This document shows positions 569 through 7,316 of a DNA stretch of 64,000 nucleotides, one piece after another; position 1 is the stretch's first letter, and every line of letters begins with the position of its first letter. The notes below the pieces were generated by a model that searched no databases, was not told the origin of the DNA, and was given only the letters and a program-made list of their open reading frames with translations. The stretch is from Tractidigestivibacter montrealensis. GTDB lineage: Bacteria; Actinomycetota; Coriobacteriia; Coriobacteriales; Atopobiaceae. A program made the position numbers and the translations under genes. Location of the stretch: assembly GCF_024741235.1 (NCBI RefSeq), contig NZ_JANSKA010000004.1, positions 186,001 through 250,000 on the forward strand. The letters run 5' to 3'.

Positions 569-2479
569 ATGAAGATCGCGGTTGCCCAGATGAGGACCAC
601 GGCAGGCGAGCTCGAGCGCACCACGGAGCGCATGATCGAGTACGCAAAGAGAGCGGCCAGCGAGAAGGCCGAACTCGTGGTGTTTCCCGCCGCCGCCCTT
701 ATGGGTATTTGGCCACCCGATCCGCCCAGCCGGGACGGACTCTTGCTCGACCTTGCGGAGTCCCTGGTGAAGATTGCCGACGAGGCTCCATGCCCCTGCA
801 TCGTGCCGGTTGTCTCTGATATCGACGGGCGGCCTGCCCCCGAAGCGATTCTCGTACGCGATGGGCAGATCACGCCGCTCAAGCTCTCAGCGATGATGCG
901 TTCATCACTTGAGCAACGTGTGCCCCAGCGTTTTCAGGAAGGCGAGGAGGGCAGGGGCCCCGCGTCTGACCTTGCCATCTTTGAGCTAGACGGCGTCCGC
1001 TTTGGGCTTGCCCTCTCCTTTGACGACCTCGATGACTTCGACACCTATGACTTTGACCTTGATGTTCTGCTCTACCTCGACAGCTGCGGATTTGTCTTGG
1101 ACGACCCCTCCTCGGGCATGGGCATGGCAATCACCGAGAGCCGCTTTATAGACGATGCCGAGGCAACGGGCGCTTGGATCGTTGGCGTGGGATCGCTTGG
1201 AACCTACGGTGAGCAGGTGTGCATTGGTGGGAGCTTCGTCCTTACCTCGTGGGGCGAGCTTGCGGCCCAGGCGGCATCGTTCGACGAGGACTTTCTCGTC
1301 GCAGACGTCAACCCCGACTATGGCGGCCCCCTCGACCATCCGCTTGCCCCGGAGGTCTTCGATCGACCACTCGTGGGCTGGAACGCGCTTGTGCAGGGGC
1401 TCTCGGAGACCATCGACCAGATGGGCTTCACCCAGGCGGCCGTGCTCGTAGACGGCACGCTTGGCTCAAGTGCCGTGGCTACCCTGGTGACCGATGCCCT
1501 TGGCCCCACCAACGTACATGCCCTGCTCGTGACTGGGGCTAACGACAGGCTTGACGCGTCTGCCCGAAAGCTCGTCGAGAACCTCAGGTTGCCCGTTCGC
1601 GAGCTCCCCATGGCCGCGCTCTCGCCGGACCGCGCGCTTGCGGCAGACCTCGCAAAGGCCCATTTGGCGGCTCTGGCGCGCGAGGAGGGCGTCATGCCGC
1701 TCTCGAACCTCGACAAGACAGCCATGGCACTTGAGATCATGCCCGGCATGCTCGCCCCCGCAGGGCTTGCCCCCCTGGGGGACGTCTACCGCTCCACCGT
1801 GCTCGATCTTGTGCACACGAGAAACACCATTTCGCCGGTCATCTCGCGTGACTCCTGCCGTGCCTTCGAGGTGCCCGCCATCCCAGGCGTCGAGGAATGC
1901 GGCCCTACGCCCGAGCAGCGGCTGGGGTTCGTCGACTACGTGCTCGCCAGCCACATCGAGTGGGCGCGAGCCCTCTCCGATATCGCTGATATCGAGGGGC
2001 ACCCCCAGGTGGTCTCGGCCATCCTTGACCGTCTTGCAACGTGCCAGCCAGGTCGAATGTCCTGCTGCCTGGTCATCGTGATGTCCACTTGCACGCTCGA
2101 CGACGCGCCATGGCCCTTGGGCATGGCGTGGCGTGACCGTCCGCGCACCAAGGAAGAACGCGCTGGCAACTTGATGGAGGGTGCGGTCTCGCTTGGCAAG
2201 GACGTGGACGAGGCAATTGCCAAGCGCTCGTCGGCGGATACGGAGGGCGAGCGCCAGACGCGTGCGGCCGAGGATGCGCGCAAGGCCGCTGCGGAGAAGC
2301 ACGACCCCGAGCAGGACATGCGCGGAGTTGTGAACCTCCTCCGAGACCTCTCGCTCACGGGTGGCCTTGCCGCCGACCAACCGGATGGCCGTGGAGGAAA
2401 GCACGGTCAGGGCGGTCGTCCAGGCCGCGGTGGAATGCCGGGTGGCGGCTCCGGCTGGCGCACCTTCTCGGAGAACTGA
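569..2479 (+). CDS. NAD+ synthetase-like protein with degenerate active sites
   Basis: 636 aa with the architecture of glutamine-dependent NAD+ synthetase: a nitrilase-type amidase domain (about 1-265), an NAD-synthase domain (about 285-560), and a charged, Gly/Arg-rich tail (about 590-636). Key residues look lost. The amidase glutamate (FPE in the family) is FPAAALMG here (Ala 41). The nucleophile region reads LALSFDDL with Ser where Cys is expected. The ATP/pyrophosphate loop SGGxDS is replaced by DGTLGS, and the NKxE region reads NLDKTA, although GLAPLGDVY is kept. This suggests a pseudoenzyme or a changed function rather than working NadE. The ATG at 569 follows AGGGGAAG and begins the family-typical MKIAVAQM; TACAAT at 526-531 may be its -10 box. 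The fold is fairly sure, the activity doubtful. Confidence 0.8.
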   Translation: MKIAVAQMRTTAGELERTTERMIEYAKRAASEKAELVVFPAAALMGIWPPDPPSRDGLLLDLAESLVKIADEAPCPCIVPVVSDIDGRPAPEAILVRDGQITPLKLSAMMRSSLEQRVPQRFQEGEEGRGPASDLAIFELDGVRFGLALSFDDLDDFDTYDFDLDVLLYLDSCGFVLDDPSSGMGMAITESRFIDDAEATGAWIVGVGSLGTYGEQVCIGGSFVLTSWGELAAQAASFDEDFLVADVNPDYGGPLDHPLAPEVFDRPLVGWNALVQGLSETIDQMGFTQAAVLVDGTLGSSAVATLVTDALGPTNVHALLVTGANDRLDASARKLVENLRLPVRELPMAALSPDRALAADLAKAHLAALAREEGVMPLSNLDKTAMALEIMPGMLAPAGLAPLGDVYRSTVLDLVHTRNTISPVISRDSCRAFEVPAIPGVEECGPTPEQRLGFVDYVLASHIEWARALSDIADIEGHPQVVSAILDRLATCQPGRMSCCLVIVMSTCTLDDAPWPLGMAWRDRPRTKEERAGNLMEGAVSLGKDVDEAIAKRSSADTEGERQTRAAEDARKAAAEKHDPEQDMRGVVNLLRDLSLTGGLAADQPDGRGGKHGQGGRPGRGGMPGGGSGWRTFSEN

Positions 2480-2560: not shown

Positions 2561-3214
2561 TTGATTATCTTGGGCATAGATCCCGGCCTTGCCAACACGG
2601 GCTGGGGCGTGGTCGAGACGCGCGGCTCTGTGTGCAGGGCACGTGCGTATGGTTGCGTCTCCACCTCCTCGGCCGAGTCCATCGATCGCCGCCTGGGAAA
2701 GATCTACGAGGGCATCTCCAAGGCCATAGAGACCTACGCGCCCAGTCAGCTTGCCATCGAGAAGATCTTCTTTGGCGAGAACTCCCGCTCTGCACTTGCA
2801 ACGGCACACGCGCGTGGCGCAGCCCTTGTCGCCGCTGCAGAGGCCGGGCTCGAGCTGGGGGAGTACACGCCCATGCAGATCAAGCAGGCAGTGGTGGGTA
2901 CGGGGTCTGCGGACAAGCGCCAGGTGATCTTTATGGTGAGGAACATCCTTGCCCTTGATCACGACCCGCGCCCGGACCACTGCGCGGACGCATTGGCGGC
3001 GGCCATCTGCCATGCCAACCTTACGCGAACGCATCGGCTCACGCGCGAGGGAGCGGCCGTGCAGGTCTTCGAGCAGGAGAGGGCACAGGAGGAGCTTGAC
3101 GCCGCCACGGCGCGCAGCGTCACGGCGGCTGCCACGGCGGCACGTCTCGCAGGCGCACGTGGAGAGGCATCGCCTCTTGGCCACGTCCGGCAGAGCAGGA
3201 GGAACACCCAATGA
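2561..3214 (+). CDS. ruvC: Holliday junction endonuclease RuvC
   Basis: Resolves Holliday junctions during recombinational repair together with RuvAB. The N-terminus IILGIDPGLANTGWG carries the first catalytic Asp, IEKIFFGEN the Glu, and DHDPRPDHCADALAAA the C-terminal acidic pair. The TTG at 2561 is preferred because GGGGAGGT (2545-2552) sits 8 bases upstream and the protein then begins directly with the beta strand; a GTG at 2543 would overlap that ribosome site. About 217 aa, with an Ala/Arg-rich tail longer than usual. It overlaps ruvA by 4 bases (ATGA), so translation is coupled. Confidence 0.95.
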   Translation: MIILGIDPGLANTGWGVVETRGSVCRARAYGCVSTSSAESIDRRLGKIYEGISKAIETYAPSQLAIEKIFFGENSRSALATAHARGAALVAAAEAGLELGEYTPMQIKQAVVGTGSADKRQVIFMVRNILALDHDPRPDHCADALAAAICHANLTRTHRLTREGAAVQVFEQERAQEELDAATARSVTAAATAARLAGARGEASPLGHVRQSRRNTQ

Positions 3215-3843
3215 TCGTGCAGCTCACGGGCACCCTCGTCGAAGTTCTGCCCTCTCATGTGGTCATCGACGTGGGTGGCGTTGGCTATGAGCTAGGCGTC
3301 TCGGCAACCACCGCGGCATCGCTGCCAGCTGTTGGCGAGGCTGGCGTTACCGTGCTCACGCGCATGCTCGTGAAGGAGAACTCCGTTGAGCTCTATGGCT
3401 TTGCCACGCGCGAGGAACGCGCCGTGTTTGACAAGCTCGTTGCCGTCTCTGGTGTGGGACCAAAGCTCGCGCTTGCGGTGCTCTCCACATTCTCGCCGGC
3501 AACGCTCGCATCCATCGTCACCCTCCAGGACGAGGGACGCATGGCGCAGGTGCCTGGCGTTGGACGCAAGAAGGCCCAGCGGCTCCTCGTCGAGCTGCAG
3601 GATGTCTTTGCCAAGGACGCAATCCTGCGCGGTCTTGTGGGCATGAGCGAACCCGCGGCAGGCCAGTCCAAGGTGCCAGACACCTCGCAATCCGTAACTG
3701 AGGAGGCAACTGCCGCGCTTCTATCCATGGGCTTCTCGCCGCAGGAGACAGAGATTGCTCTCGATGGGCATGAGGAGGCTGGCGCTGTGACGGTCGAGAA
3801 GGCCATTCAGTTTGCGCTCAAGAGGATTGGGGGCAACCTGTGA
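3211..3843 (+). CDS. ruvA: Holliday junction DNA helicase subunit RuvA
   Basis: 210-aa junction-binding subunit that loads RuvB. It starts [12 protein letters not shown] with the OB-fold domain, followed by two helix-hairpin-helix motifs ([13 protein letters not shown] and [12 protein letters not shown]) and a C-terminal domain III (about 160-210, [14 protein letters not shown]) that contacts RuvB. Start ATG overlaps the ruvC stop and its own TGA overlaps the ruvB GTG, so ruvC-ruvA-ruvB form one translationally coupled operon under the SOS box. Confidence 0.97.
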
Positions 3844-4907
3844 CGTGGGAGGCTCAGGAAGAGGATCTCTTCGACGACGTGCCGGGTTCCGGCAACGGCC
3901 ATGGGGGGCCGCGTCCCGTGACGGGCGAGCTCACGGCAGATGACCTCGACGTCGACCGTAGCCTTCGCCCAACCACGCTTGACGAGTACTGCGGCCAGGA
4001 GCGTGTGCGTGACAACCTCCGCGTGCTCATTGCCGCCGCCAAGGACCGTCACGAGACGCTCGATCATGTGCTCTTCTCTGGCCCTCCGGGCCTGGGAAAG
4101 ACCACGCTTGCCAATGTGGTTGCCAACGAGATGGGCGCCCGGCTGCGAACCACGTCGGGGCCGGCTATCGCTCGCACGGGAGACCTTGCCGCCATACTCA
4201 CCAACCTCGAGGAGGGCGACGTCCTCTTTGTGGACGAGATACACCGCCTCAACCACCAGGTCGAGGAGGTCCTCTACCCCGCAATGGAGGACTTCTTCCT
4301 CGACATTGTCATTGGCAAGGGTCCGGCAGCGCGCTCCATCCGTCTTGACGTTCCGCATTTCACGCTCATTGGTGCAACCACGCGTACAGGGCTTCTCACG
4401 GGACCCTTGCGCGACCGCTTTGGCATCTCATACCGCCTGGACTACTACACCGTCGACGAGCTCAAGCGCATTGTCCAGCGTTCGGCGGCCATCCTTGGCG
4501 TCCAGATTGACGAGCAGGGGGCGGCAGAGATAGCCTCGCGATCGCGCGGAACGCCGCGCCTGGCAAACCGCCTGCTCAAGCGCGTTCGTGACTACGCCCA
4601 GGTGAGGGCTGGAGGTGCCATCACGTGGGAGGTCGCTGCCAAGGCGCTCTCGTTCTTCGAGATAGACGAGATGGGCCTTGACTGGATGGACAAGAAGATC
4701 CTCACTGCGCTCACGAGCACCTTCAGAGGCCGTCCTGTGGGGCTCACTACCATTGCCTCCGCGGTGGGGGAGGACCCATCCACTCTCGAGGACGTCTACG
4801 AGCCGTATCTCCTGCAGCGCGGTCTCATTGTCCGCACGCCTCAGGGACGCCAAGCTACCCCTGCCGCGTTTGAGCATCTAAAGGTGCCGCTACCACCGCA
4901 GCGTTAG
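3840..4907 (+). CDS. ruvB: Holliday junction branch-migration ATPase RuvB
   Basis: 355-aa AAA+ motor that drives branch migration with RuvA. Visible are [15 protein letters not shown], Walker [19 protein letters not shown], Walker [12 protein letters not shown], sensor 1 [11 protein letters not shown], the arginine-finger region [16 protein letters not shown], and the winged-helix C-terminus ending in a FEHL block. The GTG start overlaps the ruvA TGA (GTGA). The N-terminal 30 residues are acidic and less conserved. Confidence 0.97.
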
Positions 4908-5504: not shown

Positions 5505-7316
5505 ATGGCGCTCTCCAGAAGCATGTTCAAGGTCCTTGTTGCGCTTGCAAAGTCAAACACTCATATGACCCAGCGTCAGCTGAGCGCCGCCTCGGGTCTC
5601 TCCCTTGGAACGGTGAATGGCGTCCTGCATGAGGCGGAGGACGCTGGACTTATTGCGGACGGTATGCTCACCATCGACGGGCTCAAGTCGCTGAAGCCCT
5701 ACGAGGTTGAAAACGCCATTATCATGGCCGCGGGCCTTTCCTCTCGCCTCGCCCCCATCTCCTACGAGAAGCCCAAGGGTCTTCTCCGCGTTCGCGGAGA
5801 GGTCCTCATCGAGCGGCAGATCCGCCAACTCCAGGAGGCGGGCGTTACCGACATCACCGTGGTGGTGGGCTACAAGAAGGAGTACTTCTTCTATCTGGCA
5901 AGTAAGTTTGGCGTGCGCATCAAGGTCAACCCGCAATATGCGACGAGGAACAACAGCTACACCCTGTGGCTTGTGCGCGACCGCCTCGACAACACCTACG
6001 TGTGCTCGTCAGATGACTACTTCGAGGAGAATCCTTTCGAGCACTATGTCTACGAGGCCTACTATGCCACCCAGTACGTTGCTGGCCCAACCGAGGAGTG
6101 GTGCGTGACCACGGGTTCGTCAGACCGTATCACCCAAGTTAGCGTGGGGGGTACGGACGCCTGGACAATGCTCGGCCACGCATACTTCGACCGTGCGTTC
6201 TCCACAAGCTTTGTCCCGCTTCTCGATGATGCCGTGCGTCGGCCCGAGTTGGCAGACAGGCTTTGGGAAGACATCTTCCGTGCCCACACAGACGAGCTGC
6301 ACATGGCCGCTCGGCGCTATCCCGGAGCCTCGATTCACGAGTTTGACACCCTTGATCAGGTGAGCGGCTTTGACCCTGCCTTCATCGAGAACGTTGACTC
6401 TAACATCTTCGACAACGTCGTCTCGGTCCTGGGCTGTGAGAAGTCACAGATTCATGGCTTCTATCCCTTGAAGCAGGGCCTCACTAACCTCTCGTGCCAC
6501 TTCTCGGTGGGAGAGGGAGCGGCCGAGCAGGAGTACGTGTACCGCCACCCCGGCCTAGGGACCGAGAAGATGGTCGACCGAGCCGCCGAGGAGGCGGGCC
6601 TGCGCCTTGCGCGCGAGCTTGGCCTTGACAGCACCTTCATCTACGAGGACCAGAAGCAGGGCTGGAAGATCTCGCGCTTCGTGCCAAACGCCCGCTCCCT
6701 TGACCCGCATGACCCTGTGCAGCTCAAGCGCGCTATGCAGATGTGCCGCAGGTTCCATCAGAGCAAAGCCACGCTCAACCGCAGCTTTGACTTTGTCGAG
6801 GAGGGGCTGGGGTACGAGAGGCTCCTTGCCGAGCGAGGCTCTATTGAAATCCCTGGCTATGATGATCTCAAGGAAAAGGTGCTGAGGCTCAAGGGCTACG
6901 CCGAGAGGGACGGCTTCTCTCGTTGCGTCTCGCACAACGACTTCTTCTACCTCAACTTCCTCGTCGACGAGCGGGACGAGTACAGTCTCATCGACTGGGA
7001 GTATGCGGGAATGTCGGACGAGGCAAGCGATTTTGGCACCTTCACGGTGTGCTGCGAGCTCTCCAACGAAGAGGCCGAGAACGCCCTGTATGACTACTTT
7101 GGTCGTACGCCAACCACACGCGAGCGTCGTCACTTCTGGAGCTACGTGGTCTTTGCGGGATGGTGCTGGTATGTGTGGTCGCTCGAGAAGGAGGCAGAGG
7201 GCGACAACGTGGGCGAGTGGCTTCTCATCTACTATCGCTACGCGCAGGACAACGTGGACCGCGTGCTCTCCTGGTACGAGGGCGACGAGCGCGGGGGCGA
7301 GCGCGAGGCATCGTAG
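5505..7316 (+). CDS. HTH-LicC-LicA fusion: regulator, cytidylyltransferase and choline kinase
   Basis: 603 aa with three parts. Residues 1-65 are a MarR-like winged helix (LTQRQL-type helices, MTQRQLSAASGLSLGTVNGV). Residues about 69-300 are a LicC-type nucleotidyltransferase (AIIMAAGLSSRLAP, KPKGLLRV, NNSYTLW, TEEWCV, HEFDTLDQV). Residues about 310-590 are a LicA-type choline/ethanolamine kinase with the HNDFFYLN catalytic loop (about 476) and LIDWEYAG metal site (about 495). The kinase would phosphorylate choline or a similar alcohol, and the LicC part would make the CDP derivative used by LicD. The HTH suggests self-regulation through the upstream repeats. Start ATG follows GGAGG. The exact alcohol (choline, ethanolamine, aminoethylphosphonate) cannot be read from sequence. 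Confidence 0.85.
   Translation: MALSRSMFKVLVALAKSNTHMTQRQLSAASGLSLGTVNGVLHEAEDAGLIADGMLTIDGLKSLKPYEVENAIIMAAGLSSRLAPISYEKPKGLLRVRGEVLIERQIRQLQEAGVTDITVVVGYKKEYFFYLASKFGVRIKVNPQYATRNNSYTLWLVRDRLDNTYVCSSDDYFEENPFEHYVYEAYYATQYVAGPTEEWCVTTGSSDRITQVSVGGTDAWTMLGHAYFDRAFSTSFVPLLDDAVRRPELADRLWEDIFRAHTDELHMAARRYPGASIHEFDTLDQVSGFDPAFIENVDSNIFDNVVSVLGCEKSQIHGFYPLKQGLTNLSCHFSVGEGAAEQEYVYRHPGLGTEKMVDRAAEEAGLRLARELGLDSTFIYEDQKQGWKISRFVPNARSLDPHDPVQLKRAMQMCRRFHQSKATLNRSFDFVEEGLGYERLLAERGSIEIPGYDDLKEKVLRLKGYAERDGFSRCVSHNDFFYLNFLVDERDEYSLIDWEYAGMSDEASDFGTFTVCCELSNEEAENALYDYFGRTPTTRERRHFWSYVVFAGWCWYVWSLEKEAEGDNVGEWLLIYYRYAQDNVDRVLSWYEGDERGGEREAS

Follow-up and report, generated by a model that had tools for sequence, protein, structure and literature searches.

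The locus and its neighbouring genes

The window (i.e., the whole stretch of 64,000 nucleotides of Tractidigestivibacter montrealensis DNA that was analysed) contains, at positions 569 to 2479 of the forward strand, an open reading frame for a protein of 636 amino acids that was recognized by ORF calling, Pfam, and profile alignments as a putative pseudoenzyme derived from the NAD synthetase NadE. The frame starts at the ATG at position 569, with a good ribosome-binding site just upstream, and its stop codon occupies positions 2477 to 2479. On the same strand it is preceded by a desulfoferrodoxin or superoxide reductase-like gene (44 to 424), which is a conserved upstream neighbour, and by a strong terminator-like hairpin of 14 pairs (459 to 489), and it is followed by ruvC (2561 to 3214), ruvA (3211 to 3843), and ruvB (3840 to 4907). 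A LexA/SOS box, GAACGAACGTTC, is located between the pseudoenzyme gene and ruvC (2517 to 2528), and it is the only exact GAACN4GTTC in the 64-kb window. Downstream of ruvB, positions 5505 to 7316 appear, as read by eye only, to encode a two-part protein, in which a choline-kinase-like domain comes after a nucleotidyltransferase.

Related genomes were sorted under arbitrary group codes (f-numbers), of which f1 denotes the Atopobiaceae; all other family names are assignments by inference, with f10 taken as Coriobacteriaceae from its position and gene content, and f2 taken as Eggerthellaceae. The gene order superoxide reductase, pseudoenzyme, ruvC, ruvA, ruvB is found in most Atopobiaceae and in 20 of 20 Coriobacteriaceae loci, and ruvC is located elsewhere in relatives with intact synthetase motifs. 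The LexA box between the pseudoenzyme gene and ruvC is present in 73 of 79 Atopobiaceae and 20 of 20 Coriobacteriaceae loci, and no such box was found 5' of the pseudoenzyme gene in any of 99 loci. Membership of the SOS ruv operon through a shared LexA-controlled promoter was rejected on this basis. Since the box falls after the pseudoenzyme gene and the hairpin separates it from the superoxide reductase gene, the pseudoenzyme gene most likely forms its own non-SOS transcription unit beside an SOS-induced ruvCAB operon. The presence of a LexA box directly 5' of ruvC in 93 of the 99 related loci moreover predicts SOS control of ruvCAB throughout the Atopobiaceae and Coriobacteriaceae.

Several further observations were made in this neighbourhood. 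The RuvC proteins of many Atopobiaceae, including that of the window (2561 to 3214) and those of loci L007-L013 and L044-L066, carry a C-terminal extension of approximately 55 residues with a basic, RQSRRN-like end, which is absent from the other Coriobacteriales RuvC proteins examined. This extension was checked as a possible matching partner of the pseudoenzyme, and it occurs in only part of the family. One complete, one-contig genome (G026) lacks both the pseudoenzyme gene and ruvCAB, next to a flank that is 100% identical to that of its relative G025 (L083), and copies of an element of approximately 400 bp are found nearby. This genome is probably explained by a single recent event that removed a block of over 8 kb, and the co-loss was therefore set aside as a functional signal.

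A NAD synthetase homologue devoid of both catalytic centres

The product of 569-2479 is, as judged from its alignments, a full-length homologue of glutamine-dependent NAD synthetase, comprising a degenerate nitrilase-like domain (residues ~1 to 265), a degenerate NAD synthetase domain (residues ~266 to 530), and a linker with a C-terminal tail (residues 541 to 636). Both Pfam domains were matched (CN_hydrolase, 7e-11; NAD_synthase, 3e-6), and the best solved match of the family profile was 5KHA (E 1.3e-63), aligned over profile positions 2 to 521, i.e., along glutamine-dependent NAD synthetases from end to end. The first-pass annotation, which had proposed a NAD synthetase homologue of preserved length and fold-defining segments, is borne out by these matches. 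PRK13981 (NAD synthase) aligned with residues 1 to 351 at 80 bits, far below the equivalog cut-off of 479, which the synthetase-intact relatives do not reach either (388 to 392 bits).

In nitrilase-type amidases the catalytic triad is Glu-Lys-Cys, represented by Glu45, Lys114, and Cys175 in the human enzyme (PMC6946656). Alignment to intact NadE places Ala41, within FPAAALMG (683 to 706), at the position of the Glu, which is lacking here in every member of the doubly dead clade, and Ser150, within GLALSFDDL (1004 to 1030), at the position of the Cys, where relatives have Thr, Ser, or other residues. The amidase Lys is displaced as well, and the Glu-Lys-Cys triad is thereby absent from the window protein. 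In the synthetase domain, the ATP-pyrophosphatase loop SGGxDS (SGGIDS in intact proteins) is replaced by DGTLGS (D295 to S300; 1451 to 1468), for which the family consensus is DG[ST]LxS. Likewise, DKT (1712 to 1720) is found in place of NKSE, the TGNKSE segment reading SNLDKT, so that most of this region is lost apart from Lys383, which is invariant over 53 aligned members. The core segment GDVYR (1778 to 1792), with an invariant Asp405, is retained, and QARxR, YGDT, and PPSAEL are all missing. These alignments reproduce the three replacements that the first-pass annotation had read from the sequence, and add the amidase Lys and most of NKSE to the losses. No intact catalytic motif was found elsewhere in the 636 residues, and both centres are absent from all of the approximately 80 aligned Atopobiaceae members and from 24 of the 24 Coriobacteriaceae sequences read. 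By its motifs, the window protein is thus classed as a pseudoenzyme, in which the fold-defining segments are kept.

Three states of NadE are encountered in the Coriobacteriales, i.e., single-domain proteins, two-domain proteins with a dead amidase and an intact synthetase, and two-domain proteins in which both sites are dead. Most f2 genomes encode the single-domain, ammonia-type NadE. Families f4 to f9, together with one genome each of f3 (G141) and f2 (G218), have lost the amidase residues and retain SGGxDS, NKSE, and PPSAEL, and a query with canonical NadE detected this protein as the only NadE in most of these genomes, G218 and G150 having a second one. These two-domain synthetases with a dead glutaminase domain (e.g., L212 and L213), which are apparently the sole NadE of several families (f4 to f9), are probably ammonia-dependent. 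Both sites are lost in f1, in f10, and in one f3 genome (G149, where the gene is split over two contigs). Proteins in which both centres are dead group into a single clade (support 98/99) nested among the synthetase-intact proteins, in a tree with weak support for the order in which the intermediate families branch. The existence of amidase-dead, synthetase-intact intermediates in other families indicates that catalysis decayed in two steps, and the simplest account would be that amidase loss was followed by arrival of a NadE of the PRK02628 type, and then by loss of the synthetase.

Purifying selection and an invariant C-terminal tail

A family-wide search, in which some genomes were incomplete, detected the pseudoenzyme as an open frame in 134 of 140 Atopobiaceae genomes, with copies that are 71-95% identical in Tractidigestivibacter scatoligenes, Olsenella species, and close relatives. 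Between close relatives, the dN/dS ratio of the whole gene is 0.07-0.19 and is low in both domains; the pseudoenzyme is under purifying selection. An intact canonical NadE of the PRK02628 type is encoded in 137 of the 140 genomes, that of the window included, and in all four Coriobacteriaceae genomes searched. Its gene is unlinked to that of the pseudoenzyme and evolves more slowly, with within-genus identities to the copy of the window genome of 92-100% versus 71-95% for the pseudoenzyme. The frame conservation, the low dN/dS, and the separate canonical NadE agree with the earlier suggestion of selection for a non-catalytic role.

The Gly/Arg-rich tail that was previously pointed out is indeed present, and its conserved portion is confined to the last four residues. 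Following the synthetase domain, a conserved helix resembling LLxxLRDFSxGGG and a Gly/Arg-rich stretch constitute a variable linker (2189 to 2464), which leads to the tetrapeptide FSEN directly before the stop codon (2465 to 2476). In the alignment of 53 sequences, F633, S634, and N636 are 100% conserved, as compared to a median column uniformity of only 49%, and by this measure no other short stretch of the pseudoenzyme is as tightly constrained as its C-terminal end. The protein ends in FSxN in 78 of 80 Atopobiaceae sequences, the remaining two being truncated, and in FFSxN in 24 of the 24 Coriobacteriaceae sequences read. Even the most divergent member, encoded in G017 next to ruvC (L093:3141-6396), a frame of 1085 residues with long, Asp-rich acidic insertions, still ends in FSIN. 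Because the codons for F, S, and N vary synonymously, and the stop codon varies as well, the constraint on the tail acts on the peptide.

Tails of this type are also found in synthetase-intact relatives, as FSKN in the G141 protein and as FLDN, FLEN, or FLGN in four of the five f5 proteins with intact synthetase motifs, the fifth of which ends in IMRN. Their occurrence in these relatives implies that the tail is independent of synthetase loss and of a second NadE. Since the tail is missing from several other synthetase-intact families (f2, f4, and f6 to f9), dating its origin relies on how the weakly supported branches are ordered, and it may have been gained once and then lost, or gained twice. 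A genome search found the same tail on no other protein of the window genome. The structure predicted for the pseudoenzyme from a nine-sequence alignment had a mean pLDDT of 42, which is too poor for placing the tail.

A proposed non-catalytic adaptor and related systems

Our preferred reading, to which we assign a probability of roughly 55%, is that this NadE-derived pseudoenzyme acts as a non-catalytic adaptor. The homology over two domains, the loss of both centres, the separate NadE, the low dN/dS, the invariant tail, and the presence of the tail in synthetase-intact relatives were counted in its favour, and it is the tail alone among these that points to an adaptor. In such a scheme, the protein would already have had a second, tail-dependent function before synthetase loss (moonlighting); acquisition of the PRK02628-type NadE would have released the synthetase site, after which the protein would have been retained for this second function only. 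The folded core, which has probably remained a dimer as in NadE, would serve as a scaffold, from which a flexible and variable Gly-rich linker would display the F-S-x-N-COOH peptide to a candidate partner that recognizes the free C-terminus through its carboxylate. The full sequence of events, in which loss of one site, a tail function, replacement by a NadE of another type, and loss of the second site result in FSxN being presented to a receptor in two families, is advanced tentatively and is itself more doubtful than the adaptor role. As an alternative to docking, the tail could fold back on the pseudoenzyme itself. Moreover, the invariant polar core residues K383 and D405 in the Atopobiaceae were counted against the adaptor, being compatible with a novel ligand-binding site or with another chemistry.

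Sensing of NAD, deamido-NAD, ATP, or glutamine by a protein that kept binding and lost catalysis, part of which the first-pass annotation had favoured, would fit the invariance of Lys383 and Asp405, and type-2 glutamine-dependent NadE enzymes bind PII and possess an allosteric site for NAD+ (PMC7196632), which makes a sensory ancestor plausible. However, the ATP- and NaAD-binding segments (SGGxDS, QARxR, GNKSE apart from its Lys, and YGDT) are degraded too, so that NAD sensing through the old pocket is unsupported and the sensor is considered unlikely. The same annotation had proposed partnership with a true NadE, and the two proteins co-occur in almost all Atopobiaceae genomes, as would be expected of a regulatory or structural subunit of a hetero-oligomer. 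Yet they are of separate NadE types (PRK13981-like and PRK02628, respectively, for the pseudoenzyme and the canonical NadE), their genes are unlinked, and the conserved tail already occurs in Coriobacteriales relatives in which the homologue of the pseudoenzyme is the only NadE detected, which weakens the proposal and leaves it improbable. Both sensing and partnership are judged less likely than an adaptor.

The conserved gene order, together with the location of ruvC elsewhere in synthetase-intact relatives, could suggest an accessory factor that acts with RuvC, RuvA, and RuvB in Holliday-junction processing. This adjacency leaves a repair role unproven, as ruvCAB has its own LexA box and the pseudoenzyme gene is probably a separate non-SOS unit; moreover, the protein persists where ruvC is non-adjacent or inverted (L047, L050, L070, and L071), and the only complete genome without it probably lost the entire block at once, so that there is little to recommend this role. 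A new enzyme, with the old pocket rebuilt for another reaction, could account for the novel motifs DG[ST]LxS, DKT, GDxYR, and RNTxSPV, which the clade conserves well, but no full set of new catalytic residues can be made out, and the motifs are not the same in Atopobiaceae (DG[ST]L) as in Coriobacteriaceae (xGDLPSS and TKTD), making this quite remote. Finally, the faster divergence relative to canonical NadE might be expected of a decaying, functionless remnant or a sequencing artefact, a reading that is contradicted by the dN/dS values and the conserved tail, besides the widespread open frame, and that is scarcely credible.

Cases for moonlighting are commonly built on single proteins. In this one order of gut bacteria, the stages in between (one centre dead, both dead, with and without the tail) apparently survive, so that the sequence from moonlighting to replacement to catalytic loss becomes directly testable. 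The invariant tail of the proposed adaptor in addition points to a candidate C-terminal peptide receptor in relatives belonging to Olsenella, Atopobium, and Collinsella. For annotation purposes, metabolic models should not treat proteins of the doubly dead group as NadE.

No description of a NadE-derived pseudoenzyme was found in the literature searched. The pseudoenzyme shares its domain order, its core length, and the 2-521 alignment with the dimeric glutamine-dependent NAD synthetases (NadE2-Gln; PRK13981/NF010588; 5KHA, 4F4H, and 3N05), but it lacks the amidase Glu, Lys, and Cys as well as SGGxDS, its NaAD and ATP segments are degraded, and the linker and FSxN tail are added. The octameric glutamine-dependent NadE1 (PRK02628/NF002730, Mycobacterium tuberculosis type), to which the intact NadE of the window genome belongs, is a distant homologue from which the pseudoenzyme is not derived; the pseudoenzyme differs in its subfamily and locus and has lost catalysis. 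The ammonia-dependent, single-domain NadE of f2 (approximately 275 amino acids) has a related synthetase domain and is likewise without a live amidase; unlike the pseudoenzyme, it dropped the amidase domain entirely, kept its synthetase motifs intact, and has no tail. As in pseudoenzymes in general (PMC5106787 and PMC10211241), the fold is conserved, catalysis is lost, and the protein is apparently kept for a non-catalytic role, whereas in this case a bifunctional enzyme lost both of its active sites sequentially, with living intermediates present.
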